Virus record (IMG/VR): IMGVR_UViG_3300034356_002301
Location: 1 to 38,274 of that record
Reading direction: 5' to 3' (one strand)
Length of the DNA: 38,274 nt
Source of the DNA: a virus
This document shows, piece after piece, positions 9,301-38,129 of the stretch. Both the position numbers and the translations under genes were made by a program. The notes under the pieces were generated by a model that searched no databases, had not been told where the DNA came from, and saw only the letters and a program-made list of their open reading frames with translations. Positions within the stretch are counted from its first letter, which is position 1; each line of letters starts with the position of its first letter.

Positions 9301-12300
9301 AGCGCAACGGTTTCTTTGACCATTCGCCACCCTGGGTATTCACGCTCTACCTTGAGCGCGGCGTTTATGTCCTTTTGGGCAGTTTTGGCGTTGCTGTATT
9401 CGCGGGCTATTCCGAGACTTGTACCTGCCAAATGTGCTTGCCCGCGAGCAACTGATGTGTCGGGGTTCTTGCGGTTTGCTGCCGCCTCGCGGTAGGCGCG
9501 GATCAACCTTCTGGGGTTCGGGTTGTCGGAAACTTGTACGAGTAGTTCTGCTATCGGCTGAGCAAGTGCCCATGAGGGAGAAGTTCCAAGTACCACGCGG
9601 GAAGTAAAGCGGTTGAGTTCATAAAACGCCTTCATTAGGCCCGTAGGCATATCCTTCATGTGGGCTTCAATCTTGAGCGGCCCTTCATCTACGAGGACAT
9701 ACATATCGCCTTCGCCCTCTGTGGCTAGGCGGTCGGTCAGAATATCCTCGTCGCTGCGGTACTTCTTCGCATCATCGGATGAAATCTCCCGAATCCCGTC
9801 CGTCACCTTGCCGTCATTGGAATCTACGGCCCGGCTAATCGGTCCAAGGTTTGCCGGGTCGGTGAGCATCCGTTGGTTGAGTAGCACTTTGCCGGTCGGG
9901 TCTATTTCACCGTTCTTGACGCGCCGATAGAATCCCGCCTTAGAGTCAACAATGACCTTGCCCTTGTCCTTGCCTGTAGTGTGACGAGCGACGGCCTGTG
10001 ACATTAGCCATTGGGTCTTGCGGGTGTTTGCCAAAGCGTCGTTTGCTTTCCTAACGGTGTCGAGGAACGCTTTTTGGGAGCGGTCTACTGTGCCTGACCG
10101 GGAAAGGCTGCCGGTCTTGACCTTGGGGGCGGGGCTACCAAATACTGAATTGAAGCCCGGGTTCCCAGAAGGTATGCCCGGGTCTACCGCTTCGTTGCCG
10201 GTAATGAAGAATCCCGAACTCATAATGTTGGCTTCGCTGGCTTCGCGGTTGAACTCGTCAAACACTACCTCGTACTGCTTGCGGTATTCCCGCAACCTGG
10301 CTTCCTTTTTGGCACCTTCGGCCATTTGGATAGTTGCCCGGATTTCGGCAGTACGGAGTGCGGCGGCGTTGTCCATGACTGCCAGTTTCCGCTCTTGCGT
10401 TATGGCAGCGATTTCTTCCATTACTAGCCGCTTCTGTTCGCCGTCTGGCAAACTGTCCCGTTCTTCTTGGAGCCGTTTCAGTTTGTTGTCGTATGCGGCT
10501 ACCTTTGTAGCGGCGCTCTGTCCGGCCTTGACACCCTTGCCTCGCTCTTGACTAAGCCGCTGTTGGGCATTGAGGATTGCCAAGGTGTCCGGCTTGGCGG
10601 TTTCTTGAAGCGCCTTGATTTCGGCCTCTAGCGCGTCAATCTTTGCGTAGTCGGGGCCGGTGCCTAGTTTCTCGTCGGCGCGACGGACTGCCGCCTTGCG
10701 CTCGGCGGGGGTCAGTCGGAAAGCAATCTCATCTTGGAACGCCTGGGTGTTTTCGATGGCTGCGGCTACCCGCTTGGCGGCGGCTTCCTTGCGACCCTTG
10801 AGTTCTTGAACATGCGCTCGAAGGGGTTCAAGTCTGGGATCGGGCTTCACATACAGATCCTTGATCCGCTTTTCGTGTGCCCTGATCTTCTTCTTTTCCT
10901 CGCCAAAGGCTCGTTTGGCCTTGTCACGCTCGTTGCGCTGTACCGTCTTTTCTTTTTCGATTTCCTCAAGCCGGGCCTTGATTTCTTCCTGCCTCTTAGC
11001 GCCCGGCTTCTGACGGGCTGCCTTCTTATCGGACTGCTCCAAACTGTCGAGTGCCCTGCGGCTCCTGCTGATTTTCAGTAAGTTCTCGTTCAACCGATCC
11101 AGCGTGACCAAATCATTGCTTGCCCTAGCCGCTGCCGCCTGCTCCATGAGGTCGGTTTGCTGCGCGTCGAGTTCGGCCCGTTTTGCGGCGGTGTCGGTTA
11201 CGCCTGCGGATTCCCCGGTGTTCCCGTCCCGTTCATCCCGTAATGCTCTGGCTTCGGTGTCGAGTTCTCCAATACGGTTTATAGCTTTGTATTGGTTATT
11301 AGCAAATGCTTGTTGCCGACCTTCGGCGTTCACCTTGTCTATCTCTGCCTTGATAGCCCGCCCTTCGCTTTGAAGCCGTACCCGTTCGCGGGCATCCCTG
11401 GTATCAAGTTTTGCTTGCTTGATCTTGAGTTGCTTTTCAGCCTTTGCTAATGCTGCCCGGCGATTGGCTACGGTGCCCTTTAGACCCGTCAGCACTTGAT
11501 CGTCAGCGGCGGCAAGTTCCTTTGTACCAATGGCTTCTGGGCGAATCGGGTCTGCTTGATCCGTCAGTTGCGCGTAGGTAATGTTGGCTTCCAGTTGATC
11601 GGCCCGGCGTTGCTCGGCTATAACTTTTGCGGCTTCCTCCGGGGTCTTGGCCTGTAGCCGTATCGTGTCCTCCCAAGCATCCTGCGCTACTTTGCTTGCC
11701 TGCCTTGCTTTAGCCCACGCCTGAGCAAATGCGTTGGTAAGTCCCGCGTTCGTGCCGTCGAACAGTTCCGGCGTGTTCAGAATCGCGTTGGCAACTCTAG
11801 CGTCTGCGCTACCGGGTTCTACCTTGCGGCTTACTGCGGCTACTTCGGCAAGTAGGTTAGGCCCGGGCTGTAGTTTCTTGTGGGCAATCCAGCCGATCTT
11901 GTCACCGATGCCTACGGGGGCAATCGTTTCTGCTACTACCTTGGCCTGATCCGGTGTCATACCCTTAGTAGCAGCGGTTACTTCTGCTTGGTACAACTCC
12001 TTGTCTTTCTTGTAGACAGCCCGGATGCCCGGCTGCCGGTTCAACTTCTCAACACCCTCGCGCCATTCCCTTGTGACCTTGCCGAGTATCCAATTACTTT
12101 CACCCTCTGCCCGACCAAACACGCGGGAGGCGTACCAGTCAAGTTTTTTCTTGTTCCAGTTGCGCTCAAGGGTGGGCAGACCGACTGCGCCGCCTAGTGC
12201 GGAATCCGTAGCCGTGCGACCGGCGAACCGAACAGACTTGCCTACAGCGGGTCGGAGTATGTAGGCCGCGCCCATTGCGTTGAGCAGTCCGTAATCATTT

Positions 12301-14018
12301 TTTGTTGCTTCGGCAATCTTGTCTACATCGCCAGAGGTATACACATCTATCATGCGCTTTGTCTCGAAGATCATTTCTTCTCCGAGGCGCTTTACGGGAG
12401 CGGTAATGTAATCCCCGCCTGTTTGGTATTTCGGAGTGTCAGGGTCTAGTGCGCTGAAAGCCCGGGAGCCGGTCATTCCCACATTGGCGGCTAAGGTGAA
12501 GGGGAAGGTAGCGCCTGAGATTAGACCTCGAGCAGAGGTTTCAAGCGTCGTGCCGGGATCATCTATGAAGCCCTTAGCGGTGCCTTCTATAAAGTCCTTG
12601 GTGTAGCCGGGGCCGACATAGGACTCCGTGATTGCCGCACCACCCGTTACCGCCCCTGCGCTAATGCGGGCCTTCTGATAGCGCGGTGACTTGGTGAACT
12701 TCTGTAATGCCTGTAGCGCCTTGTAACTTCTGGGTGCGTTAGCAGCAGCAACGGCGGCTGCTTCTGCGGTTTGGGCTGTTGCTACCGCTGCCCGGGATTT
12801 CGCCACAGCGCCAGGAAGGGTTACTAACGCTCGCCCTGCCCTAAAGGTTGGCAGTACGCTCATAAGGTCTATGGTGTCGCCTACATCTTGGTTGTCTTGC
12901 GATTGGATTGCCACGGCAACTTCGCCTAGAGAGTCAGCATTAGCAACAGCCTCAATCTTTTCCTTGACGGGATCTACCGCGCCACGATAAGCGCCCTTCG
13001 CCATCCCCACAATTGCTTTGTCAATACCTTGGGCTTCGGCATCCCGCATTGCTTGTTCCTCGCGGGCATCTATCGTGCCGTACTCACGAACCGTGTTGAG
13101 AGCAATCTTGCGGGTCTTTGCGTCGGTTTGTTCCGCCTTCTTGATTAGGGCTTGCGCCCTGTTTTCTGCGGCCCGGGCGTTGCTCAATACCTTGTTGTAC
13201 CGATCAACCGACTTCCCGGGCTTTATGAACTTGCCATTGGGGGTGAGAAAAGAATCAAGTTTTTTGATTCGCCTGTCTCGTTTCTCAATCCAATTGTTTG
13301 CCTGCTTGTGAATCTTTTCAATGTCTGGCAAACCGCCGTAGGGATTCTCCCTGGCAATAGGCATTTCGCCTTCTGCCGCTTCTTTATAAGTCCCTTTGGA
13401 GAACTCGCCTACCAATAGGGCGGCGTTTCTAGGCTTGTTGAGATTGGTGCGAACCCTTCTTGCCGCGTCTGCGCCCTCTTGTTTGATCGTTTTTTCTACA
13501 ATGCTGTCAATGAGGGGCTGCGCCTGCTCAACTACCCGATCCCGAGTTTGCTTGCGAAGCTCTGACCGGACGGTGCCGGACTTCTTCATGCCTTTTTTTA
13601 GTTGCCCGATTTCTTTGCCAACATCAATGTCTGGGAAAGAACTGGCTACGGAGATATTGCGAATTCTGCTTTGCGTTGTAGCAGCCGGTGATTTGCCTGA
13701 CCTCTTGCGAAGGGCATTTAGCCTTTGCTGTGGAGTCGGAGCGGGCGGGCCGACGAAACTGCTAGACCCGCTGCTTGAACTACTACTTGAACTTCCGCTG
13801 GAACTTCCGCTTGGTGAGGGAGGACCGCTAATCGGTGGAACATAACCGGGTGCCATCGGAGGATGCCAGCCCGGAGCTTCGGGTTTTGGCTTCGTGCTGC
13901 CATCAACCCAATCTGGCAATCCAAAGGGGTCTTTTTTCTTTTTAGCGTGGCTACGCTCCCAAAAAAGGTCTAGGTCAGCATCCTCATTCCGCCACCGCTT
14001 GCGGTTTTCTTCAAACAT
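6333..14018 (-). CDS. giant internal/ejection-type virion protein with two cell-wall hydrolase domains
   Basis: A 2561-residue protein, by far the largest here. The N-terminus is charged with a Ser/Gly/Pro-rich stretch (about 55-100). Helical regions follow, with a long Lys/Glu/Ala-rich coiled coil at about 850-1240. A region with several hydrophobic segments (about 1500-1900) could meet membrane. Near 2165-2290 a glucosaminidase-like fold is suggested by AKETGLDPKVVGGWVLAEQG and NWLNIG. At about 2340-2440 an M15 peptidase shows SGFRTRAEQ, SNHEFGRAADVNL (His 2399, Asp 2406) and EDWHVEL (His about 2432). The tail is Thr/Gly-rich. It follows two medium internal-type proteins, as in podovirus ejection gene sets, so it probably helps DNA cross the cell wall at entry. 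Confidence 0.8.
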   Translation of the reverse strand: MFEENRKRWRNEDADLDLFWERSHAKKKKDPFGLPDWVDGSTKPKPEAPGWHPPMAPGYVPPISGPPSPSGSSSGSSSSSSSSGSSSFVGPPAPTPQQRLNALRKRSGKSPAATTQSRIRNISVASSFPDIDVGKEIGQLKKGMKKSGTVRSELRKQTRDRVVEQAQPLIDSIVEKTIKQEGADAARRVRTNLNKPRNAALLVGEFSKGTYKEAAEGEMPIARENPYGGLPDIEKIHKQANNWIEKRDRRIKKLDSFLTPNGKFIKPGKSVDRYNKVLSNARAAENRAQALIKKAEQTDAKTRKIALNTVREYGTIDAREEQAMRDAEAQGIDKAIVGMAKGAYRGAVDPVKEKIEAVANADSLGEVAVAIQSQDNQDVGDTIDLMSVLPTFRAGRALVTLPGAVAKSRAAVATAQTAEAAAVAAANAPRSYKALQALQKFTKSPRYQKARISAGAVTGGAAITESYVGPGYTKDFIEGTAKGFIDDPGTTLETSARGLISGATFPFTLAANVGMTGSRAFSALDPDTPKYQTGGDYITAPVKRLGEEMIFETKRMIDVYTSGDVDKIAEATKNDYGLLNAMGAAYILRPAVGKSVRFAGRTATDSALGGAVGLPTLERNWNKKKLDWYASRVFGRAEGESNWILGKVTREWREGVEKLNRQPGIRAVYKKDKELYQAEVTAATKGMTPDQAKVVAETIAPVGIGDKIGWIAHKKLQPGPNLLAEVAAVSRKVEPGSADARVANAILNTPELFDGTNAGLTNAFAQAWAKARQASKVAQDAWEDTIRLQAKTPEEAAKVIAEQRRADQLEANITYAQLTDQADPIRPEAIGTKELAAADDQVLTGLKGTVANRRAALAKAEKQLKIKQAKLDTRDARERVRLQSEGRAIKAEIDKVNAEGRQQAFANNQYKAINRIGELDTEARALRDERDGNTGESAGVTDTAAKRAELDAQQTDLMEQAAAARASNDLVTLDRLNENLLKISRSRRALDSLEQSDKKAARQKPGAKRQEEIKARLEEIEKEKTVQRNERDKAKRAFGEEKKKIRAHEKRIKDLYVKPDPRLEPLRAHVQELKGRKEAAAKRVAAAIENTQAFQDEIAFRLTPAERKAAVRRADEKLGTGPDYAKIDALEAEIKALQETAKPDTLAILNAQQRLSQERGKGVKAGQSAATKVAAYDNKLKRLQEERDSLPDGEQKRLVMEEIAAITQERKLAVMDNAAALRTAEIRATIQMAEGAKKEARLREYRKQYEVVFDEFNREASEANIMSSGFFITGNEAVDPGIPSGNPGFNSVFGSPAPKVKTGSLSRSGTVDRSQKAFLDTVRKANDALANTRKTQWLMSQAVARHTTGKDKGKVIVDSKAGFYRRVKNGEIDPTGKVLLNQRMLTDPANLGPISRAVDSNDGKVTDGIREISSDDAKKYRSDEDILTDRLATEGEGDMYVLVDEGPLKIEAHMKDMPTGLMKAFYELNRFTSRVVLGTSPSWALAQPIAELLVQVSDNPNPRRLIRAYREAAANRKNPDTSVARGQAHLAGTSLGIAREYSNAKTAQKDINAALKVEREYPGWRMVKETVALEQLGKFDRWKGSLIREAGLLAELDRELSTLRRTAKAIQGNYDVIERSSGILMKMNRAEQIKWLNSREGMEAGQLLAKNLDELYGNWTDLKPGYEREIGSVVFFYPFVRFSLDWTLRTFPKRHPVRWQLATMFGQFNAEILERLMNYDPRWMNDWAVAVLYGGPDGDPTMLSPLSRTGIAGNIFMEAGFSKEGDLISNLFKAVVPLTSGAPRIFLSEKDQYGNRLSDPDDDITNPDPGMKTKVGQWIEEFLLLAAPPREILRETGYSPKEIIQGEQDAPELSLDGFDLTKPLSIFSNAPGREPKAGDDPNLTRDRIRRNLFALTPEPVEGKQQEQELDRLYRAREDAQTTARGKYPRVTFRGRKNQSLYDVGRKLAAERRAQEAEGLSGEPRTAEEKRLAKRYIKLSGMNKYGSDRVEKLNRQIVEYAKKVGAPLPNDSTIKQEVVQARYDEQDQVKQQYMQRWGGTEYPGYRQAKKMLAQTGNAGDSLGEGLSNTPRTTQASLSSGGYNYDATQPGYTPKTPITTYRDQPANTPPAERIPAGAGIEPMKNVPRKRQVAFAKKIRAQKVKAFGSGSAKISAPGLSKSQRTFAQVLAKETGLDPKVVGGWVLAEQGYASGDYEARDYHNWLNIGPHMEAPEFGSPATAAKATAAFLRGEKWGAGAGIPGILPNAVGKSPEEQVEVLRGSGWDAAGYQDGIPWQDVTATPINTGNQQQAKERFWQMVERGKRMGVYEVPEDAPTNPQATGDFSQGGKQGTSKTEWFAPDENTLLRFQPPLANALLQLAKASGEPISFNSGFRTRAEQEAAYADYQAGGALAAVPGTSNHEFGRAADVNLTDKQRELLSQFGLGLPVPGEDWHVELVGDAANAYTDGMPQSTPTSPMQQVKAAARAKAAAASGTTGGGTTGGTTSSTTETPGTQSNAINNLQNFRNPDGSILNWGTGTEMDLPSAAVNVSEASQNSESDKVKSVAESLAGLPKYVKPKPKKR

Positions 14019-17035: not shown

Positions 17036-19543
17036 CTAGATGACGATGCTCTTCTGGAACCTACGCCGGAATGTCTGCGTAGCTGTAGTGTTCTGGCCGT
17101 GACAAGTTATTTGAATTGTCGGAGTGCCTGTCAAGTCATTTGTTGTCAAAGCATAAATCGCTCCTGATGTAGTCGTGGCGATAGCCTGTCTCGCATTTGC
17201 GGCAGTAGGAGCGTAGCGATTGATACTCATCTGCAAATAGGCGCTGCCTGAAGAATGAGTGACAATGGCGGCAGATATTTCCACAATCGAAAAGTTTGTG
17301 GCTGAGTTTGTGAGAGTCGCGCCATCGGTGTGGGTCAGGTAAGTGACTCCATCAACTACGAGGGTGAATACATAAGTCCTTGCGGCCCCAGAGTTGTTTA
17401 TCAGGTATCCCTTTACTTCTGTTTCGATTGCCTTCCCTGAAGCTAAAGCAGTATTCGGTATAAAAGTGGCAATCGTCTGGGCGGAAGTAGAGTTTACCGA
17501 TATCGAAGTATCTGAGAGGTTGGTCGCATCTACAATAGGACCAGTTGCTCCCGTTGCTCCGGTGCTACCTGCCGGGCCGCTTGGTCCCGATGGACCGCTA
17601 GGACCAGAAGGACCGCCGCCTGCCGCTACCCATTCAAGATTCCAGTCATCGGCATCAACCTTTGCCAGAACCTCGCCTGTGCTGCCGCCCGGAGGAACGG
17701 GGAAGGCAATAAAGGATATGCCCGAATCAACCCAATCAGTACCGTCATAGGTCCAAATATCAAAGAGTGGTGAGCCGTCAATCTCGATGTAGTAATCACC
17801 GGATGAGCCGGGATCAGTCGGGGGTCCGTAGTCAAAGGTAAGTGTGCCGCTGCCCCCCGCAGGACCGGATGGGCCGCTGGGTCCGGTGGCTCCTGCCGTA
17901 CCCGGTGTTCCGCTTGCTCCCGCCGCTCCGGTAGCCCCGGTTACTCCTGTCGGTCCCGTTGCGCCTGTAAGTCCTGTGGGTCCGCTCGGTCCCGTGGCTC
18001 CTGCGATGCCCGCTGGTCCCGATGGTCCGCTTGGACCCGCTGCGCCAGTCACACCAGTTGGTCCTGTAGCTCCGGCTGGTCCGGTTGCGCCTGTAACTCC
18101 TGTGGGTCCGGTGGCACCATCTGCGCCTGCTGCCCCGGTTACGCCAGATGGTCCTGTCGCCCCGGTAAGTCCTGTGGGTCCGCTAGGGCCGGTTGCGCCG
18201 GTTGTGCCTGCGGCTCCGCTTGGCCCGGTTGCTCCCGTTGCTCCGGTGCTACCTGCCGGGCCGCTTGGTCCCGATGGACCGCTAGGGCCAGAAGCACCGC
18301 CGCCTGCCGCCACCCATTCAAGATTCCAGTCAGAGGCATCAACCTTTGCCAGAACTTCGCCTGTGCTGCCGCCTGCCGGGACAGGGTAGGTCAAAAGGCT
18401 AACGCCGCTTGCGGTCCAATCCGTACCGTCGTAAGCCCATATTTCCCAGATTACGGGTGTGCTATCTAGCTCTACATAAACTGAGCCGCTGCTGGGTGAA
18501 TAGGTCGGCGTTCCGTTGCCGAACACAATGTCTCCCGCTTCACCTTCGGGTCCAGAAGGACCGGATGGGCCGGAGGGTCCGGTAGCTCCGGTTACTCCAG
18601 AAGGCCCGGTGGCTCCTGTGGCTCCTGCCGTACCCGGTGTTCCGCTTGCTCCTGGTGTCCCGCTCGCCCCCGTTGCTCCGGTTACTCCGGTTGGCCCGGT
18701 CGGGCCGGGAACCGTTGAGGCAGCGCCGCTTGGCCCGGTGGCTCCTGCGGGACCGCTCGGCCCCGTTGGTCCTGGCACGGTTGAAGCCGCACCAGTAGGG
18801 CCAGTTGCGCCTGCGGGTCCGGTTGATCCGACATTTCCAGAGGGCAAAAAGTCCACTGAAAGAAAGCCCGGCGAAACACCAGGAATGTCACCTGAGATGT
18901 AGTCAACGCCGATTTTGTAGTAGCCCGTTGCTGCGGTAACGCTTGTAACCGCCAGAACCATTGTTGCTGAGCTTGTAGCGGTTTGGATAAGAAGGTTGCC
19001 CTTTATTGCGCTGGTTGAATCATCCCAGGTGTCATACCATGCGGTTTGACTAGTGGTATTGAGGTCTTGGTTGTCAATGAATACCTGAGTCACCGAAGCA
19101 GCCGTTGAGTTATTGAGCTTTAGGTTGCCTGCGCCGGGGTCAGAATCAGCCGTTGTGCTGTTGAAGGTGTACCTAAGCCCACCGCGAGCGCCAGAAGGAC
19201 CGGATGAACCGCTCGGGCCGGTGGCTCCTGCGGGTCCAGAAGGCCCGGTGGGACCAGAAGGCCCGGTGGCTCCGGTGGCTCCGGTAGGTCCGGTTACGCC
19301 AGTGGCTCCTGCTAAACCGCTAGGGCCAATAATTCCGCTGGGGCCGGTCGCTCCAGTGACTCCTGTTGGGCCGGTGGGACCAGCAAGCCCGCCGTATGGA
19401 AGTGAGTTCCAAGCAGTTGCACCGTCACCAACCTTGAACTTGTCAGTGTCGGTTTCTAGCGCCATTTCACGCTCTGCCAAAATAGGGTTATTGGCAATCC
19501 AATTGGCTGCCGTGTCGCCTCTAAGTTGGATTCGTACCGCCAT
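17036..19543 (-). CDS. large collagen-like tail fibre
   Basis: An 835-residue protein whose ATG 19543 overlaps the upstream stop as TGATG. Residues 1-50 ([25 protein letters not shown]..., [17 protein letters not shown]) match the N-terminal attachment module seen in phage receptor-binding proteins. Several collagen-like Gly-X-Y blocks follow (GPTGPTG, GATGPSG), broken by a globular insert (about 120-240) and two related modules of about 70 residues containing YDGTDW and [11 protein letters not shown]. The last 160 residues form a beta-rich knob ending in [12 protein letters not shown]. Gly-X-Y blocks form trimeric stalks, so this is probably the main host-binding fibre. Internal DNA duplication is described separately. 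Confidence 0.85.
17544..17689 (-). repeat. 146-base direct repeat, copy 1 (fibre gene)
   Basis: This stretch matches 18228-18373 at about 140 of 146 positions by hand alignment, offset by 684 bases (228 codons, so in frame). It covers the end of a collagen block and the conserved [11 protein letters not shown]...EWVAAGGG linker. The collagen parts alone would give loose similarity, but near-identity through the non-collagen linker points to a recent duplication or gene conversion inside the fibre gene. Confidence 0.8.
18228..18373 (-). repeat. 146-base direct repeat, copy 2 (fibre gene)
   Basis: Second copy of the repeat at 17544-17689. The six differences I see are mostly third-position or single-residue changes (for example Ala/Asp and Ser/Asp swaps near the linker). 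Repeats of this length allow loss or gain of whole 228-codon fibre segments by recombination, a known route for changing fibre length and specificity. Confidence 0.8.
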
Positions 19544-19782
19544 CAGCCAATTCCTCCGTTGATACCACCGTCAAACAAAATAGAGGTTGAAGTGCCTCCG
19601 TCTACATTGACAAAACTTGCTCCGGTGGCTCCGGTGGCTCCGGTGGCTCCTGCGGGTCCGCTTGGCCCCGTAGCACCAGTAGCTCCGGTTGGCCCGCCAG
19701 CCGGTCCAGTGGGACCAGGTGCCCCGATAAGCACCTTTTCCCACGCGCTCGTAACGGGATTGTATTGCTTTATAACCGTCAT
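19543..19782 (-). CDS. small collagen-like fibre protein
   Basis: A 79-residue protein. ATG 19782 overlaps the previous stop as ATGA; the longer frame from 19851 would overlap the neighbour deeply. The first 20 residues ([20 protein letters not shown]) form a short strand-rich head, then about 35 residues of Gly-X-Y sequence (GPTGPAGG..., [10 protein letters not shown]), then a Gly-rich tail. It is a minor or linker fibre lying between two larger collagen-like fibres, and may join them into one appendage. Confidence 0.72.
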
Positions 19783-20525
19783 GTGAGTTTGACCGCTTTT
19801 TGCGTTTTGCGCGTGAAGGTCTGAGTGGCTGTTGTATTTTGACCGTGACAATAAAGTGCCAACGATCCTCCATCCGTAAAATCGTTTGCCGTGTTATTCC
19901 AAATCTGACCGCTGGCAGTAGTTGTCATATCTTGGCGAGTGTTAGCAGTAGACGGACTTGAGCGATTTAGGGTCATTTGAATGTGACTATCAAATTGATC
20001 GTAGACGGCTACAACAATTTTTACATCTACAACCGAGGATGTAGCCGAGTTTGTAAGAGCGGCACCTTCTGTGTAAGTCAAATAAGTTGTGCCATCAAAT
20101 TGAACTGTCCAAACATAGGTTCTACTCGCACCTGAATCATTCTTAAGCAAACCTCGCACATCAAGTTCAAACATTGTGTTGGCTGCTAGGTTCGAAGTTG
20201 GGGCAGCAAGTGCGACTAACACAGGCGTTGTTGAGTTCACATTGTAAGAAGTGCTTGTAACTAGGGCATCGTCAAAACCTGCGCCCGTTGGACCGGAGGG
20301 ACCGGATGGACCGGATGGGCCTATACCAACATCCCCTGCCTCTGTGGTGTCAGCCCAAAGGCTATCTGTATCGTCTGGAGGCGTGTCGGAAATGATAATG
20401 CCCGGATCGCCCTCTGGCCCGGTAGGTCCGGTTGGCCCGGTAACGGCAACCTCAACTTTTTTGTCTAAGTATTCAAAGTTGAGCGTCGAAGCCCGGTCTG
20501 GGACTGTTCGATGCGGTAACTCCAT
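19779..20525 (-). CDS. tail fibre with short collagen stalks and knob related to the large fibre
   Basis: A 248-residue protein. Its start overlaps the upstream stop as TAATG. Two short Gly-X-Y stalks (VTGPTGPTGPEGDPG and [15 protein letters not shown]) flank a link with DTPPDDTDSLWADTT. The last 155 residues form a beta-rich knob clearly related to the knob of the large fibre: both share NSGA/SRTYV-type strands, a TYLT-H/Y-T-x-GAxLTNSAT segment and the exact [12 protein letters not shown] end. The paralogous knobs may trimerise alike or bind different receptors. Confidence 0.8.
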   Translation of the reverse strand: MELPHRTVPDRASTLNFEYLDKKVEVAVTGPTGPTGPEGDPGIIISDTPPDDTDSLWADTTEAGDVGIGPSGPSGPSGPTGAGFDDALVTSTSYNVNSTTPVLVALAAPTSNLAANTMFELDVRGLLKNDSGASRTYVWTVQFDGTTYLTYTEGAALTNSATSSVVDVKIVVAVYDQFDSHIQMTLNRSSPSTANTRQDMTTTASGQIWNNTANDFTDGGSLALYCHGQNTTATQTFTRKTQKAVKLT

Positions 20526-31339: not shown

Positions 31340-32857
31340 CTAGGCGACGGGGATTTCGGGGCGCGATACTGACTCAAAGTGTTCGCGGGCCATTCGTTCC
31401 TGTTGTGTCTCTGTAACTCGTTCAAACTCATGGGGTAGGTACGGGCGGCTCATTACCGCAAGGCGCGTGGCATCCATAAGGTGATCGTGCGACTTGACGG
31501 GAGCTTCTTTACCGTCATTTTCACCCGCTCGAGGGGGTTTCTTCCAACGGTAGGTGCGAATCTCTTTCAGGAAGTTCACGCAGTTTTCACCGATCAAAAG
31601 GCGGTCGGTTTGAAATCGCTCGCGTACACGGTTAATTCCAGCGGTAACAGAGTTTTGCCCGGGAATAGTGACTACGCCGTGGTCGGCAAACTCCATTTGA
31701 TCTGAGCGTCCAGTCTGAGAGTTCCGGTTCCTGGCCGCAGGGTCAATGACATAATAAATCGGCTGGCAATCGTAGTGCGCGTTGGTCTTGTGGATTTCGT
31801 CGCACACTTCCCGAATGGTCATATCCTTGAAATATCCTTCCTCAAACATGACCATTTTATCGTCAGAGGTCAGGTAGTACCAGCCGACCGCACAGGCATA
31901 ACGGATGCCCGGGTCTATGGAGACAACGACATTGACATTCTCGGGCAAGGGGTCTACCGGGGGCACGGTGTGTTCTTCTCTTTTGAAGTCCTTGTAAACG
32001 AGTCCTGACATAGCGACGAACTTGCCTTCTTTACGAGCAAGTCTTTCTTCATTGGAAAGCCCGCGAAGTGCCTCTACCTTCTCAGCCTCCCCGAGCCAAG
32101 GGTTATCGTCCATATCCACAATGACCAGGCCCATGCCGTCGTGCTGAATGATCCCGCCGTTGTCCTGGGCCAACTCCATTGAGTCAGAGAGTTCGTCGTA
32201 CATATGGGTCAGACCGTTTACGGGGGTCATGGTGAATAGCAGATCCCCGCGCCGACGCATAACTCGTAGCCGGGCTTCCTGTAGGTGTTCTCTGCCCGGT
32301 TCTTCGTCCATATGAACGCGATCTAGGGTCGAACCTCCCCACTGCTGGGCTTCCTGTTGAAAAGTCTTGAACGAGTAGTAGGTGCCGTTCTGTAGGTGTA
32401 GAACATGGTTCAACTTGTCATAGGCCGACTTCCAGTTACCTCCGACCAACTGGTTTGGCGGCAGCCACTCCCTCAATTTCTCAAAAATGAAGTCCTCAAT
32501 TTCTGAGCGACCCTGAGCGGCGATCCGGCAGCGGAACGGTGCGTTGTACCGCTTGAATTGCCGCAGGTGTTCGGGCACCATATCCGCGTCAATGCCTTGG
32601 ATAATATCGTCCACGATTCCCCAAGTAGTCTTGCCTGACTGGTTGCCTCCAATGTAGGCGATACGGCGGTCTGTAAAGCCGTGGCCGATCATCTGCTTGG
32701 GATGAACAGGCCCGAAGGCCGGGTTGTTGTAGCGAATCAGAGGATTGTGCTTTACCGAATCCTCGAGGTTCTTGATTGCCTGAATCGCACGGTCCCGCTT
32801 GGCGGGCGGCAGAAGGTCAATGCGATCCTTGGCAATCGTGAGTGCGCTTTTGGTCAC
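31340..32857 (-). CDS. terminase large subunit (packaging ATPase and nuclease)
   Basis: A 505-residue protein if started at GTG 32857, which overlaps the previous stop as GTGA; a TTG at 32878 is the other option. The ATPase part has Walker A GGNQSGKTT (about residues 70-78) and Walker B-type VHMDEEPG, followed by the coupling motif TMTPVNG. The C-terminal nuclease has VVSIDPGIR (first acidic residue), YVIDPAARNRNSQTG (second) and HLMDATRLAVM (third), the RNase H-like set. The enzyme drives DNA into the procapsid at the portal and cuts unit lengths. The HTH protein upstream may be its small partner. Confidence 0.9.
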   Translation of the reverse strand: MTKSALTIAKDRIDLLPPAKRDRAIQAIKNLEDSVKHNPLIRYNNPAFGPVHPKQMIGHGFTDRRIAYIGGNQSGKTTWGIVDDIIQGIDADMVPEHLRQFKRYNAPFRCRIAAQGRSEIEDFIFEKLREWLPPNQLVGGNWKSAYDKLNHVLHLQNGTYYSFKTFQQEAQQWGGSTLDRVHMDEEPGREHLQEARLRVMRRRGDLLFTMTPVNGLTHMYDELSDSMELAQDNGGIIQHDGMGLVIVDMDDNPWLGEAEKVEALRGLSNEERLARKEGKFVAMSGLVYKDFKREEHTVPPVDPLPENVNVVVSIDPGIRYACAVGWYYLTSDDKMVMFEEGYFKDMTIREVCDEIHKTNAHYDCQPIYYVIDPAARNRNSQTGRSDQMEFADHGVVTIPGQNSVTAGINRVRERFQTDRLLIGENCVNFLKEIRTYRWKKPPRAGENDGKEAPVKSHDHLMDATRLAVMSRPYLPHEFERVTETQQERMAREHFESVSRPEIPVA

Positions 32858-33066
32858 ACGGTAAGTGTACGCATCCAAACCTTTCGATTCCCGGGCACCC
32901 TATCCAGACCCTTCATATGAGGACCAGCCATACACCAGTCAGGAACATCGTTCAAGTGGAGAAAATCAGTCTTACAACAGAAATGGTCTACGGATTCTTC
33001 CTTGGGATTTACCCCCGAGCGCCAATGTCTGACCGTCCGGGCCTGATCCTCCGGTACTAAACGCAT
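32854..33066 (-). CDS. small protein upstream of terminase
   Basis: A 70-residue protein starting at ATG 33066, with AGGAAG eight bases upstream. It has two adjacent cysteines (HFCCKTDFLHL) and a later WCMAG, with His residues nearby, so a zinc site is possible but not a standard layout. Its stop overlaps the terminase start as GTGA, so it is probably translated with it. A longer frame to 33246 would cover two other tiny genes and is rejected. Function unknown. Confidence 0.6.
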   Translation of the reverse strand: MRLVPEDQARTVRHWRSGVNPKEESVDHFCCKTDFLHLNDVPDWCMAGPHMKGLDRVPGNRKVWMRTLTV

Positions 33067-33113: not shown

Positions 33114-33200
33114 TCAAAGCGCCAGAACAAAAAAGATCAGCGCACAAACCAAACCGGCTACGGCTATTTGCCACACCCACAGGTTTTCGGGAGGGATCAT
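33114..33200 (-). CDS. tiny single-helix membrane protein
   Basis: A 28-residue frame too short for most gene finders. Its ATG 33200 overlaps the previous stop as ATGA. The sequence is a short polar head (MIPPENLWVWQ) followed by one hydrophobic helix (IAVAGLVCALIFFVLAL). A chance frame of this kind, in exact coupling with a neighbour and without break, is unlikely. Phages often carry such single-pass peptides; no function can be given. Confidence 0.5.
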   Translation of the reverse strand: MIPPENLWVWQIAVAGLVCALIFFVLAL

Positions 33201-33418
33201 GCGAACAGGGCTGTTTGGGGGTCTTTGACCAAGGCGTAGCGGGCACCGTAGCGCCCTGGGGAGTCCTCGTATCGCTCTGATTGGATTTGGTAGCCCGCGT
33301 CTACGAGTTCCTTGATTCGCTGAGAGGGATTGCCCGAGAATCCTTGCTTTCGCAGGTAGAAGCTAGTTACCGATCCTTGGGTTTCCAGCAGTTCCAAAAT
33401 GCGGTCTTTGTCGCTCAC
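33197..33418 (-). CDS. winged-helix DNA-binding protein
   Basis: A 73-residue protein from GTG 33418, overlapping the previous stop as GTGA, with AAGGA upstream. The pattern is classic for a small winged helix: DRILELLETQGSVTSFYLRKQGFSGNPSQRIKELVDAGYQIQ, i.e. helix, turn, recognition helix with S/R/I-x-E-L, then a wing with ARYAL. Such proteins occur in many phages and bind DNA as regulators or as parts of packaging or replication complexes. It may act on the promoter region just to the right. Confidence 0.72.
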   Translation of the reverse strand: MSDKDRILELLETQGSVTSFYLRKQGFSGNPSQRIKELVDAGYQIQSERYEDSPGRYGARYALVKDPQTALFA

Positions 33419-33517: not shown

Positions 33518-34042
33518 TCAACTTACCTCCTGTGTCAAGGCTTCCGCCCTCCAGCGGTTTACCGTTCGACGGCTGATTTTCAAGGCTTGGCTTACTTTTC
33601 GCACAGAAATACCGTCCTCGAGCATTTTCAGCCCCTCGGATCGCCGGGCATCTACTATGGGACTCCTTTTGCGTAGATACCTTTGATCGGCTGACCATAC
33701 ATCGTCGGGGATCATGCGTTCTGAAATCAAGTTTTCTGTCATTACGCGGTCGGCGGCTCCATATCTGTCAGCCCGACCACCACGCTCCCAATCACTCCAA
33801 CGCCGAATAGTCGCGTCAGGTTGTTGGTTTTTGACAACGCCCTCAGAAAGCAGGAAAGCAATGAACCTGGGGCCATCCAACCAGCGGGGGAGTTCTTCGG
33901 GTTTGTCCATGAAATAAACACTAGCGAGCTTGTCAAATGGTGGTGGTCTGGAAGGTGGTTCTGCCTGATCCCAATTTGGGAAGCCCGGGAATTGGTTAGC
34001 CCCCTGGAACGGCAAAGGGGCCGCACGGCCCTTGACTGCCAT
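33518..34042 (-). CDS. HTH protein, possible small terminase subunit or regulator
   Basis: A 174-residue protein, first gene of the long leftward block. I chose ATG 34042 over the frame start at 34075 (TTG). The N-terminal third is Pro-rich. The middle has the pattern IRRWSDWERGGRADRYGAADRVMTENLISERMIPDDVW, much like a motif common in actinophage small proteins (RxWRxGxxADxYxxDRxL...LPDxxW). The C-terminus is a clear helix-turn-helix (RRSEGLKMLEDGISVRKVSQALKISRRTVNRWRAEAL). It lies five genes ahead of the terminase, so it may be the small subunit that recognises the packaging site, or a late-gene regulator. Confidence 0.65.
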   Translation of the reverse strand: MAVKGRAAPLPFQGANQFPGFPNWDQAEPPSRPPPFDKLASVYFMDKPEELPRWLDGPRFIAFLLSEGVVKNQQPDATIRRWSDWERGGRADRYGAADRVMTENLISERMIPDDVWSADQRYLRKRSPIVDARRSEGLKMLEDGISVRKVSQALKISRRTVNRWRAEALTQEVS

Positions 34043-34354
34043 ACGACCCCGTTTGCTATGCTTCCAGCAGATCAACGAAGAAAGCGAGGAAAGCGTATCA
34101 AATAGCAGAACTTGACAACTCCATGGCGCGAGTCCCGGCAGAGTGACCTATGAACGGGGCGGTGAATCGGATTCTGACGGCTACCTACTCTAGCGAGGCA
34201 AGGAAAGCGCGATCCCCGGCTAACTGACATTGAACCAGGCTCTAGTACGCAGACAGCATCATGGAGAAAAGCCTAGCCTCGGGAGAAGGGGCGCTAGTGG
34301 GGGGCTACCCCAGAGAGGGTCGAACTGTGCCCAATTTCCTGTAAACTAGGCGGT
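34043..34354. other. divergence gap with weak micro-frames, no firm gene
   Basis: This 312-base stretch separates the leftward block from a rightward small gene. I see only very short rightward frames: ATG 34059 (15 residues, basic), ATG 34150 (25 residues) and ATG 34261 (27 residues, stop at 34342), none with a ribosome site. A truncated relative of the 13-base element (TTGACTGCCATA, 34032-34043) overlaps the start of the HTH gene. A TTGACA word at 34111 lacks a fitting -10. GGAAAGCG occurs twice (about 34093 and 34201). The DNA may hold control sites or a small RNA; nothing is proved. Confidence 0.4.
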
Positions 34355-34561
34355 ATGGAACAGCGCAAACAACTGGCCCGAGCAATGGCTACCAGGAAGA
34401 AGTTGAGGCCCATCAAGGCCAAGTTTGAGGATTCCCTGGGGCCGCAGAGAAGTGCTCAGCTAGTCAACCGTGGCTACACCTACAGCAACGGATACTGGCG
34501 GCAAACCAGACCTCCTTACCGTAGACCCGCGCCTTTTACGCCGTCCCAACTTCCTGCGTAA
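34355..34561 (+). CDS. small basic protein, leaderless start candidate
   Basis: A 68-residue basic protein (MEQRKQLARAMATRKKLRPIKAKFEDSLG..., GYWRQTRPPYRRPAPF). TGTAAACT (extended -10 form, hexamer 34342-34347) lies seven bases before the ATG, so the transcript could begin at the start codon, as in leaderless genes. No ribosome site is visible. Its TAA ends at 34561, directly beside the tRNA gene on the other strand, so it is convergent with it. The charge suggests RNA or DNA binding; no family known. Confidence 0.6.
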   Translation: MEQRKQLARAMATRKKLRPIKAKFEDSLGPQRSAQLVNRGYTYSNGYWRQTRPPYRRPAPFTPSQLPA

Positions 34562-34632
34562 CTCGGGGTAGAGGACTCGAACCCCTATTGCCGGGACCAA
34601 AACCCGGTGTCTTACCGTTAGACGAACCCCGA
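34562..34632 (-). tRNA. tRNA-Gln (anticodon UUG)
   Basis: The minus strand folds as a full cloverleaf. The acceptor stem TCGGGGT pairs perfectly with ACCCCGA (34563-34569). The D-arm is GTCT/AGAC. The anticodon stem CCGGG/CCCGG holds loop TTTTGGT, so the anticodon is TTG (reads CAA). The T-arm AGGGG/CCTCT encloses TTCGAGT. The discriminator base is G and CCA is not encoded. The gene ends flush with a rightward gene at 34561 and starts flush with the stop of a small leftward gene at 34633, so no spare bases remain on either side. Confidence 0.93.
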
Positions 34633-34734: not shown

Positions 34735-34962
34735 CTAGTACCGGGAACCTTCGTGAAAACTCTCCAGGATCGCCTCTATGCGCTTGGCAGGCACTCCCTG
34801 CTTCCGTGCGTGAGTGATAGCAGCAGCCACAGCGTCCTCGCAGTCGTGGTATTGGATTCGGGCTGACTCCCTTTTGGAGAGGGACCGGGTAAGTCTGACA
34901 ATCCACGAATCAAACTCGCGGCCCTCCACAAACTCCTTGCCGTCATTGTTCTTGATCGTCAT
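34735..34962 (-). CDS. small helical protein
   Basis: A 75-residue protein from ATG 34962, which overlaps the upstream stop as ATGA and has AGGAAG eight bases before it; the GTG at 34968 would be too near that site. The N-terminus is charged, and three helices follow (SWIVRLTRSLSKRESAR, DCEDAVAAAITHARKQG, AKRIEAILESFHEG). The last two resemble a short helix pair with a turn at GVPAK, which could be a DNA-binding unit. No family recognised. It lies in a three-gene leftward set with two zinc ribbons and a tRNA. Confidence 0.62.
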   Translation of the reverse strand: MTIKNNDGKEFVEGREFDSWIVRLTRSLSKRESARIQYHDCEDAVAAAITHARKQGVPAKRIEAILESFHEGSRY

Positions 34963-35150
34963 AGCCACAACTTCCTGGTCAGGTGTTTCCAGATTCTAGA
35001 TCGAATAGGAACCCTACGACACTCAGGACACAAGGCACCCCAATAACGCTTTCCTATTTGGTCGTACCGAATGTAGCGCCGGTCAACGCGGTTCTGGCAC
35101 CCATCGCATTTCAGGTGGCTAGAAGGAAATCTCGGGGGAATGTCAAGCAC
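34959..35150 (-). CDS. zinc-ribbon protein, 63 residues
   Basis: The frame starts at GTG 35150, with AGGA seven bases upstream. It has CDGC near residues 15-18 and CPEC near 41-44, spaced by about 22 residues with basic and aromatic residues (RRYIRYDQIGKRYWGAL), a standard zinc ribbon. The C-terminal tail is very basic (RRVPIRSRIWKHLTRKLW). It is the first gene of the set running left into the tRNA. Two CTTGACA words stand near the start (35141-35147 and 35170-35176). Probably RNA- or DNA-binding. Confidence 0.65.
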   Translation of the reverse strand: MLDIPPRFPSSHLKCDGCQNRVDRRYIRYDQIGKRYWGALCPECRRVPIRSRIWKHLTRKLWL

Positions 35151-35245
35151 CTACTCATCCTAATCCCTCTGTCAAGAGTATTCACAGGTCGGCTGCCGGG
35201 AGTTTGTCAGGTACGCCTTCCCTGTTCATCTTTAGGGGGCATCTA

Positions 35246-35407
35246 GTGGGCCTGGCAGTAAAAGCGTTTCCCCGTGTTTCTGGAGGCTATCTGGCTCTAG
35301 CAAGCCAAGTAGGGCCGGGGAGAAAGGGCTGCCGGGTTTTCAGGGTTAGTTTCCTGTTCTTGGCTCTAGTCCTACCTGTTTTGGCTTGTAGCCTAGTGAT
35401 CGGGTAG
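35246..35407 (+). CDS. possible small membrane protein
   Basis: A 53-residue frame from GTG 35246 with AGGGGG six bases upstream. Its last third is one strongly hydrophobic stretch (VSFLFLALVLPVLACSLVIG) with an LVLPVLAC-like run, and the preceding part is basic, giving a possible N-in anchor. Five bases of T follow a weak hairpin at 35401-35419 but are nine bases away, so it is not a clear terminator. The frame lies in CTAG-rich DNA and codon use is unremarkable, so it could be chance. Confidence 0.33.
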   Translation: MGLAVKAFPRVSGGYLALASQVGPGRKGCRVFRVSFLFLALVLPVLACSLVIG

Positions 35408-36024
35408 TGATCTAGCCCGTGAGGGGGGTTTTTGTGCTGTTGGTACCCATATATAAACATCCATACATCACATCACTTCACCGCCTCCCCTCCCCTTCTG
35501 CCTACCTGTGAACATGTGCGTACTAGCACGAGGATGGACCCCCGGACACCTAGTTCACGATGAAACAAGCCGTACAGATAGCCTAACCTCGAGGCCAGCA
35601 AGCCTAGTCCTGATGCCAGATGCCGGGCACCTAGTCGCCTGAGTGAATGAGTAGGTGAGAGGGTTTACCCTAGTCAACAAGCCACCTAGCTCAGCCACCT
35701 AGCTCAGCCAACAGGCGACCATGCCACCTAGCACTAGCCCCTAGTCCCTAGTGAGTGAGAGCAGGTAGAGAGGGAAGCCCGCGAAGTCAGGCAGCCAAGC
35801 CAGGCCGAGCCGACCTAGTGCTATCTAACCCTCAAGGATGCCGACCCGATGCCAGCCACCACGCCACCTAGCGAACGCAGCCGAGCCGCTGCCAGGAGCG
35901 CAGAGAATGGACACCCAAGCCCCTAGCACTACAGGAGCAGGAGCAGGAGGGAAGCCCGGAAGCCCGCGCCATTATTCGCCGCAGATGCCCGAGCCGATGC
36001 CCGCAGATTCTTTGCTCCCAGCCC
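35408..36024. repeat. CCTAGY-rich, mainly non-coding divergence region
   Basis: No convincing gene lies here; the best frame is 42 residues (35514-35642) without a ribosome site. The stretch is marked by CTAG words: about 19 between 35240 and 35930 by hand count, against roughly 14 in the first 10 kb. Most read CCTAGT or CCTAGC in the plus orientation. There is also an AT-rich patch (about 35452-35480, with CATATATAAACATCC), a run of purine-free bases (about 35478-35505) and a 13-base tandem repeat at 35681. It looks like a binding-site array, such as an origin or control region. Confidence 0.6.
35681..35706 (+). repeat. tandem 13-base repeat GCCACCTAGCTCA
   Basis: Two exact, adjacent copies (35681-35693 and 35694-35706). 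A third, shortened copy begins at 35723 (GCCACCTAGCACTAG), and GCCACCTAGCG recurs at about 35862. All keep GCCACCTAGC, the longest form of the CCTAGY word of this region. Direct repeats of this size can serve as iterons for an initiator protein or as sites for a regulator. Confidence 0.75.
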
Positions 36025-36059
36025 TTGACAAATGCCAGCGGAGGGTATACTTTCCCCGC
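36025..36059 (+). promoter_or_regulatory. early rightward promoter with TTGACANATGCCA site 3
   Basis: TTGACAAATGCCA (36025-36037) supplies a perfect -35 box. TATACT (36046-36051) follows at a 15-base spacing, or TACTTT (36048-36053) at 17. The ATG at 36060 lies eight or six bases after the -10, so the transcript probably starts at or next to the start codon. The extended match with site 2 on the opposite strand is TGGCATNTGTCAAGGG. This is the best promoter in the window and would drive the zinc-finger, small-protein and clamp genes. Confidence 0.7.
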
Positions 36060-36704
36060 ATGAGTCAGACAACGACAGACACCGCCGCCCCAGCCATGCA
36101 CAAAACCACCACAGGAGGAACCGCACCGATGCCCGCACTATATGGACGAAAGAACGGTGGCAAATGGCACCGCGTCAGCACCGACGCAACCCACCGCGCC
36201 CACTGCAACCAGCGCAACCAGGCGACCACCACCAGCACCGAGCGCCCGACCGCCAACCTTTGCGGCCAATGTTTCAAGACCGCACAAGACACCACAGCCG
36301 CCCAGGACAGCAAGCACCTCGAGGAACTTTGGACCGAGAACGACCGCAAGCACCAAGCAACGACAGACGAAGGAGCCGCAAGAATGGACAGCAAGCCCGA
36401 CGAATGGCAGCCCAGAGCCGCCACCAAAGCAGAAACCGCCAAGCACCTAGCAGACAACGAAGCCCGGAGGATGGACACCGCAGCGGACCCCGCTTGGATG
36501 AAAAACCAAATCTATGTAGTGGAAGCCCGCCCGCACCACGACGCACCGCACGACGGAGCGACTTTGACCCATTGGACCTACCACGCCAAGCAGATCACAG
36601 ACGCACGGATGCGGAAGCACCACAAGGACCGAGGCGTGAAGTTCTACGGATACCGTGAAGCCGAAGCCGAAGCCAGCCGCGCCAACCGCAGCCAGGAGGC
36701 ATAA
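36060..36704 (+). CDS. zinc-finger-type early protein
   Basis: A 214-residue protein from ATG 36060, which follows the early promoter so closely that the message would be leaderless. A second start at ATG 36129 has AGGAGG ten bases upstream and may give a shorter form (MPALYGRKNGGKWHRV...). After this point come HRAHCNQRN and LCGQCF, a possible His/Cys zinc site, as in many small actinophage proteins. The rest is charged and helical with little hydrophobic core. The frame contains two copies of AGRATGGACA, read as R-M-D-S/T. No specific function known. Confidence 0.65.
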   Translation: MSQTTTDTAAPAMHKTTTGGTAPMPALYGRKNGGKWHRVSTDATHRAHCNQRNQATTTSTERPTANLCGQCFKTAQDTTAAQDSKHLEELWTENDRKHQATTDEGAARMDSKPDEWQPRAATKAETAKHLADNEARRMDTAADPAWMKNQIYVVEARPHHDAPHDGATLTHWTYHAKQITDARMRKHHKDRGVKFYGYREAEAEASRANRSQEA

Positions 36705-36706
36705 GA

Positions 36707-36916
36707 ATGGACAGCGCCTACGGATACACGCCCGCATACACGACGCAAGCCGCCCGCGATGCGTTCAGGTGGCAAGGGAAGCGATACGCCGACCACATAG
36801 AGCAAAGCGCCCTAGAGATGGCCGCCCGATTCAAAGCCCGAGGACAGCACGACGAAGCCCGGAAGATGGTAACGCGCACCATTGGCGAAGCCCTACAGGG
36901 TAACGACGGAATCTAA
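36707..36916 (+). CDS. small early protein, unknown function
   Basis: A 69-residue protein from ATG 36707 with AGGAGG seven bases upstream. The start codon lies inside a copy of AGRATGGACA. The product (MDSAYGYTPAYTTQAARDAF..., HIEQSALEMAARFKARGQHDEARKMVTRTIGEAL) is helical after residue 12 and mildly basic. No domain recognised. It follows the zinc-finger gene with a two-base gap and precedes the clamp, so it is probably co-transcribed. Confidence 0.65.
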   Translation: MDSAYGYTPAYTTQAARDAFRWQGKRYADHIEQSALEMAARFKARGQHDEARKMVTRTIGEALQGNDGI

Positions 36917-37019
36917 ACCGCAGCCAGGCGACAGGGAGAAAGACCCCGAGCGGATCACGCCCGCAGTCGCCCTTGCCCATACCGGGCAGACCAAACCACC
37001 ACAACGCAAGGATGGACAC

Positions 37020-38129
37020 ATGAGCGCAAGCACCAAACAGATCAAAGAAGCCGTGGCAATGGCCCGGAAGTTCGAGAAAGAATTCGGACCAAGCACCAGC
37101 AGCACCGACCCGGGCACCATTGCCCACATGAACAGCCGAGGAATTACAGTTTCACACGGCCAGAATTGGCTGCGGATAAAGTTTGCCGAGCCTATCGGCG
37201 GACTGTGGGAAGTACCGCAGCCCGTTCGCCTCGAGGATGCCGCGAAGGTAGCCGGAGAATGGACAGCGAAGGACACGCCGAAAGCCCACGCGACCCCGGG
37301 CGGAGGATGGACAGCCGCAGGGATTGAGTTCCCGCCCGCAGAAGCGAGCGATACCAGCGACCCGACCACGGAAGCCAGGACGCAGGGAGCAGCAACCTAC
37401 GCAACCGCAGACCTGCACGACCTTGCAGCGAAGGTAGCGAGCAAGGACGATATGCGCCCCGTTCTGACAGGCGTAAGGTTCGAGCCTGATGCAATGGTGG
37501 CGACGGACAGTTACAGGCTTGGAGTCATTACCGCAGATGGCCCGAGCGCAGGCATAACCGTGCCCGGAGCAGCCGTAAGGATCGTGACCGAGAAGGCCGG
37601 AGAATGGACAGCACTACGGACGGAGCCGGAAGCCGACCCCGAGAAGCCGGGCACCGTTGCCGGACTTGAGACAGTCACCAAAGCGGGCAACAGCGTAACG
37701 GTTGAAGTCGGAGCAATCAGCGGGCAGTTCCCGAATTACACGCAACTATTCCCAGAGTATTACGAGTGCAGCGCCAGGATGGACACCGCCGCAGCACTAG
37801 CCGCAGCGAAGAAGGTCAAGAGATGGGCAGCGAATAACAAGCCCGCAGTGATCGAGTGGAGCGCCGGAGCCGTGACCCTCGAGTTTCCGAACGAGAACGG
37901 CCCGAGCGTAAAGCCGCAGCCAATCACCAACGGAAGCCCGCCCAGGTATCAAGTAAGACAGGACGGGGACGAGTTCCCGAGGATCGGCATAAACCCCGAA
38001 TTCTTGCACGACGGCCTCGAGTTCACCGGAGAAAATGCCACGCTCGAGGCCACCGGCCCGCTTCGCCCCGTAAATCTCAACAGCGGAAACCGCCGCTATC
38101 TTCTGATGCCCGTAAGGATCGGAGCATGA
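37020..38129 (+). CDS. DNA polymerase III beta-clamp-like protein (sliding clamp)
   Basis: A 369-residue protein from ATG 37020, with AAGGA seven bases upstream; this length is close to cellular DnaN (about 366). The frame extends to 36882 upstream but that part lacks a start signal. The diagnostic parts are DMRPVLTGVRFEPDAMVATDSYRLGV in the middle (the beta-clamp KxxxRPxLxGVxF...T-D-S-YRL signature) and the C-terminal NRRYLLMPVRIGA (the MPxR-type end). The N-terminal third is weaker. A clamp tethers a polymerase to DNA. Its presence suggests a replication module further right. The gene carries four AGRATGGACA copies in two frames. Confidence 0.85.
   Translation: MSASTKQIKEAVAMARKFEKEFGPSTSSTDPGTIAHMNSRGITVSHGQNWLRIKFAEPIGGLWEVPQPVRLEDAAKVAGEWTAKDTPKAHATPGGGWTAAGIEFPPAEASDTSDPTTEARTQGAATYATADLHDLAAKVASKDDMRPVLTGVRFEPDAMVATDSYRLGVITADGPSAGITVPGAAVRIVTEKAGEWTALRTEPEADPEKPGTVAGLETVTKAGNSVTVEVGAISGQFPNYTQLFPEYYECSARMDTAAALAAAKKVKRWAANNKPAVIEWSAGAVTLEFPNENGPSVKPQPITNGSPPRYQVRQDGDEFPRIGINPEFLHDGLEFTGENATLEATGPLRPVNLNSGNRRYLLMPVRIGA

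Follow-up and report, generated by a model that had tools for sequence, protein, structure and literature searches.

A dense array of CTAG words, most of them CCTAGY, occupies 691 bases (35240–35930) of the 38,274-nucleotide stretch of viral DNA analysed here (IMG/VR record IMGVR_UViG_3300034356_002301; hereafter the window), and we consider it most likely to be a terminal short-repeat array of the T7 kind, built on a new word. Expressed as a rough probability, we give about 57% to the reading in which a podovirus-like phage that has direct terminal repeats (DTRs) carries its genome ends, joined in the concatemer, in this stretch, CCTAGY being the word of its terminal array. The array is real, strand-fixed and non-coding, and it lies between a leftward late operon and a rightward early operon, where it probably acts in cis. 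The first-pass annotation had correctly placed it at this divergence of transcription and was justified in treating it as a genuine non-coding and probably cis-acting element; the origin and operator roles it offered are less likely than a genome terminus, a packaging-related reading that it missed.

The density of the array is borne out by counting. Nineteen CTAG words fall within the 691 bases (27.5 per kb), as the annotation had estimated, against 73 in the other 37,583 bases of the window (1.9 per kb). When the array stretch itself was shuffled with its dinucleotides kept (n=2,000), the mean was 6.7 CTAG and 1.33 CCTAGY, and none of the 2,000 shuffles attained the observed 19 or 13. Orientation is equally strict, with 13 CCTAGY on the + strand and no RCTAGG, in agreement with the earlier claim of a one-strand bias. 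All 19 words have the form HCTAGY, the preceding base being C in 13 cases, T in four, A in two and never G; the following base is T or C in 19 of 19 across both arms of the array, compared with a pyrimidine in 38 of 73 elsewhere. Also present is the tandem 13-base repeat first noted there (GCCACCTAGCTCA, + strand), with two full copies at 35681..35706 and 2.4 copies in all over 35680–35710, and the many stops in all three + frames bear out the view that the stretch holds no convincing gene. What did not survive was the premise that CTAG is scarce, since for this genome overall 92 were observed against 96 expected. Many leftward late ORFs end in a TAG that lies inside CTAG (at 17036, 21147, 23300, 23589, 24875, 26159, 26185, 31022 and 31340), so that part of the background CTAG of the structural block consists of stop codons. 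A search of viral contigs with the array DNA returned no further copy. Two other accounts of the words were rejected: TAG as a sense codon, because the words are spread over all three frames and the sole tRNA is Gln-ttg, with no suppressor, and the words as −10 elements, because they mismatch TANNNT.

An array of this kind might have no function, having arisen by drift and by local duplications in non-coding sequence, where codon-level depletion of TAG and CTA does not apply. CTAG is indeed lower in genes, a second non-coding stretch (34076–34561) has six CTAG, the 13-mer is tandemly duplicated and relatives do not conserve the word. Nevertheless, the excess persists against the dinucleotides of the stretch itself, the orientation is kept in every word of both arms, and most words sit in dissimilar flanks, which makes this account an improbable one. 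Moreover, the second non-coding stretch shows no CCTAGY excess, and the array excess is therefore more than a by-product of non-coding DNA.

The words are arranged in two + strand arms around a word-free central block of ∼105 bases (35416..35522). The left, late-side arm (35243..35415) has five words, four TCTAGY and one CCTAGT, whereas the right, early-side arm (35523..35926) has 14, twelve CCTAGY and two ACTAGC. Within the central block are a G-run (35423–35428), an AT element (CCCATATATAAACATCCATACATCACATCAC, 35446–35476) and a C-run (35484–35495). The AT element is the AT-rich patch that the annotation had described, lying not next to the array but inside it, between the five words and the 14. 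The central block is kept in part in three relatives and is a candidate terminal-repeat core. Its secondary structure gave z-scores near 0 and no net covariation. Word spacing was irregular in period analysis, with a best period of 6.8 (p∼0.014) and a single exact interval of 13.

Repeats beside a partly conserved AT-rich element, in a non-coding stretch on the early side, are also what would be expected of a replication origin, the words being initiator-binding sites and the AT patch a melting element, much as in lambda-type iteron origins. The lambda origin, however, has four 18-bp iterons within gene O, whereas the array has many irregularly spaced six-base words and no long direct repeats (about 17–22 bp), the longest being the 13-mer. 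No initiator was recognised among the genes searched, although the early region is incomplete in the window and an initiator could lie outside it. A change of GC skew had been proposed as a check at 35.4–35.9 kb, and we found no origin-marking sign change there; the change in AT skew at the divergence goes with the switch of coding strand. We therefore regard an origin as unlikely, while noting that a terminus may also serve replication. From 35500 to 38000, A greatly outnumbers T on the early coding strand (AT skew between +0.4 and +0.58), which is also richer in GC than the late block.

The genes on either side define the position of the array. The late operon, leftward, includes a P22-like portal and capsid and a large terminase subunit (31340..32878, − strand), followed by a small winged-HTH protein (33197–33418, leftward) and a 185-residue HTH protein (33518..34075, − strand; HTH_23, E 4.5e-8). 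The latter is a candidate small terminase subunit, its versions in relatives having sub-threshold matches to Phage_terminase (PF10668) and Terminase_5. Beyond it are a tRNA-Gln (ttg; 34562..34632, − strand), which also occurs at the matching place in related contigs L005, L006 and L011, and two leftward ORFs of 77 (34735–34968) and 63 residues (34959–35150), the second zinc-ribbon-like. Between these and the array, a − strand element, GTATTCACAG (35178..35187), contains GTATTCACA, which is common to three relatives, and is probably part of a leftward promoter. On the early side, a candidate promoter at 36025..36053 (+ strand), albeit absent from the list of a strict promoter scan, pairs TTGACA (36025–36030) with either TATACT (36046–36051, spacer 15) or TACTTT (36048–36053, spacer 17). 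It precedes the first early gene (36060..36704, + strand; 214 residues from the ATG at 36060, no Pfam match), downstream of which lies a sliding-clamp-like gene. Further into the late side, a − strand ORF of 2,561 residues (6333–14018) with no PHROGs match is found where Jasmine-like phages encode their giant internal virion protein.

This arrangement bears on whether the words are an operator array, bound by an early HTH or zinc protein that controls the divergent promoters. The array does lie between two divergent operons, with small HTH and zinc-ribbon-like ORFs nearby. However, the array ends ∼100 bases upstream of the early promoter, no CTAG word falls within 35927–36060, where that promoter lies, and most words are 100–500 bases upstream. 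Furthermore, the strand of the words is identical in both arms though the promoters face opposite ways, and no repressor was recognised, small HTH proteins notwithstanding. An operator array consequently seems to us marginally less probable than an origin, and none of the origin, partition and operator readings is the best fit to the data.

A genome terminus, by contrast, has close precedents among phages with known ends. In T7, 13 CCTAAAG words surround the 160-bp terminal repeat, 13 to 0 on one strand, many of them 13 bases apart (best period 13.1), and T3 has nine CCTAAAG around its repeat; these arrays go by the names SRL and SRR. The terminal short repeats of T7 are suspected of a role in concatemer processing and packaging, although to our knowledge the role of T7-type arrays is not settled. 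The window resembles T7 and T3 in having more than ten short non-coding words that begin with CCTA, clustered and nearly all on one strand, which flank a word-poor centre between the terminase (late) end and the early promoters. It differs in the word itself (CCTAGY rather than CCTAAAG), in its weak left arm of mostly TCTAG, in a 13-bp spacing that is only a faint echo of that in T7, in a terminal repeat that is predicted, and in operons that diverge at the array, the T7 genes all running in one direction. The word need not be the same from phage to phage, as gh-1 (L037) illustrates: eight CATAGG, mostly within CCATAGGA, lie around its terminal repeat and flanks (0 of 2,000 shuffles), so that the place is fixed while the word changes between T7/T3 and gh-1. 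The word of gh-1, phage-specific and different in sequence from CCTAGY, lies on both sides of the repeat, as is proposed for the window, its array being known here from sequence alone.

The nearest named relatives with high coverage, Arthrobacter phages Jasmine and Adat and Microbacterium phage Shocker (24–30% in capsid and terminase), all have direct terminal repeats at the early/late divergence, of 1330, 1551 and 484 bp, respectively. Podovirus shape and a terminal repeat have also been reported for Jasmine (PMC5513430). In Jasmine and Adat, related to the window phage by capsid and terminase, an array of CTATCC words lies early-side of the repeat and ends ∼30 bases from the repeat edge; the divergence at which it sits corresponds to that of the window. 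In contrast to the one-strand array of the window, CTATCC occurs in both orientations, its strand with respect to the early genes is the reverse of that in the window, and a hairpin marks the repeat edge, whereas no comparable hairpin of note was found in the window stretch. In LUZ24 and tf, the ends of the latter having been determined experimentally by sequencing (PMC3517423), a leftward late operon (portal–TerL–TerS) is followed by the terminal repeat, ∼0.8–0.9 kb of non-coding DNA and rightward early genes, which sets the repeat between the small terminase and the early promoters as proposed for the window; unlike the window, these phages have no strong T7-like word array, CCTA and CTAG words being moderately clustered at most. 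Two further observations concern other phages. In Shocker (L027; 522–885 and 44320–44400), TACCCTAA words lie a few bases upstream of start codons; rather than a terminal array, they look like extended −10 promoters that serve near-leaderless genes. In Cellulosimicrobium phage DS1 (L028), a circularly assembled relative, a CCTAGG cluster near an intergenic gap at ∼33.6 kb is a possible terminus.

We also scanned nine phages with known terminal repeats for their strongest short-word clusters, with no word preselected. At k=5, a cluster ≤1.1 kb from the terminus ranked first in seven of the nine and second in the other two, some of these clusters being poly-T or promoter-like and unlike T7 words. 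In the window, the CCTAG array led at k=5 with a score of 16.2, whereas at k=6 it came second to a nine-base-periodic coding repeat of the tail region. Such repeats (collagen-like coding, 17577–20442, in tail-region genes) are the sole word clusters that rival the array. Lambda and HK97 served as the two cos controls: no leading cluster fell at the ends of lambda, and in HK97 a weak one lay near its end. Word clusters are thus a suggestive, albeit unspecific, indicator of termini.

Capsid and terminase searches yielded related contigs with ∼65–74% identity across parts of the structural block, three lineages of which (L005/L017, L007 and L011/L018) extend to the matching divergence. None of the three has a CCTAGY array there. 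What they keep is GTATTCACA, the central element and the C-run, the central element being TATATAAACATCC in the window and nearly so in L018 and L007, with AACATCC in all four. To the right of it, L018 has six CCTGA (shuffle mean 0.9, 0/2,000), L007 has seven CCTGY (1/2,000) and three CCACCCAG (0/2,000), and L017 a weak excess of ACTAG (8/2,000), tests that are lenient because the words were picked after inspection, post hoc in the case of L018 and L007. The layout is kept in the three relatives while the word differs. An even CTAG density, without conservation, in the matching region of close relatives had been named by the first-pass annotation as grounds for abandoning its reading; CCTAGY is indeed missing from the three relatives, but this is no clean refutation, because two of them have a strand-biased word of their own in that position and the third a weak excess. 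The HTH proteins also differ among the four phages, and their co-variation with the word is mixed, four being too few to establish it. Conserved-element scans returned the known relatives and, besides them, two unrelated large contigs; the clamp protein used as a probe for relatives gave no matches, and no prophage was found in genome contigs by terminase alignment. In L018, a block that is nearly the same each time, TAAAATGGGTGTgaACgCACACACGAGAGGAGCAacaccATG, stands before every one of the early genes concerned (about 7236–7304, 7720–7784, 8346–8390, 8712–8749 and 9238–9285), in two cases with TTGACA upstream; it is a repeated promoter- or start-associated sequence.

Assemblers are known from P-SSP7 to conceal such terminal repeats (PMC3350473), and the window record, which is linear, has no end repeats, a point against the terminus reading, as are the low similarity of the named relatives and the reversed word strand in Jasmine. 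As an assembly shows a terminal repeat once, the junction would read late operon, five words, central block, 14 words and early promoter, with the predicted repeat located in or around the central G/AT/C block. On a replicated concatemer, terminase would bind the one-strand words through its HTH small subunit, for which we propose the HTH protein at 33518..34075 as candidate reader. The bound words would fix the place and direction of packaging, a cut would be made near the central block, and duplication of the repeat would leave a copy at both ends.

It is conceivable, though doubtful, that DTR phages commonly carry a phage-specific, strand-fixed terminal word array which the small terminase reads, its HTH changing in step with the word, and we would be equally tentative in assigning the window array to such a terminus 'address code', for whose discovery sequence alone would suffice. 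With a stable layout and a word that varies from one relative to the next, the group offers a natural experiment for learning which protein reads the array. As the nine-phage scan suggests, word clusters could serve as an inexpensive initial test for the termini of metagenomic phages. If the terminus reading is true, sequence alone would have located the ends of the genome in a group of uncultured phages, and the T7-type terminal array would extend, with a different word, to actinophage-like podoviruses whose operons diverge.
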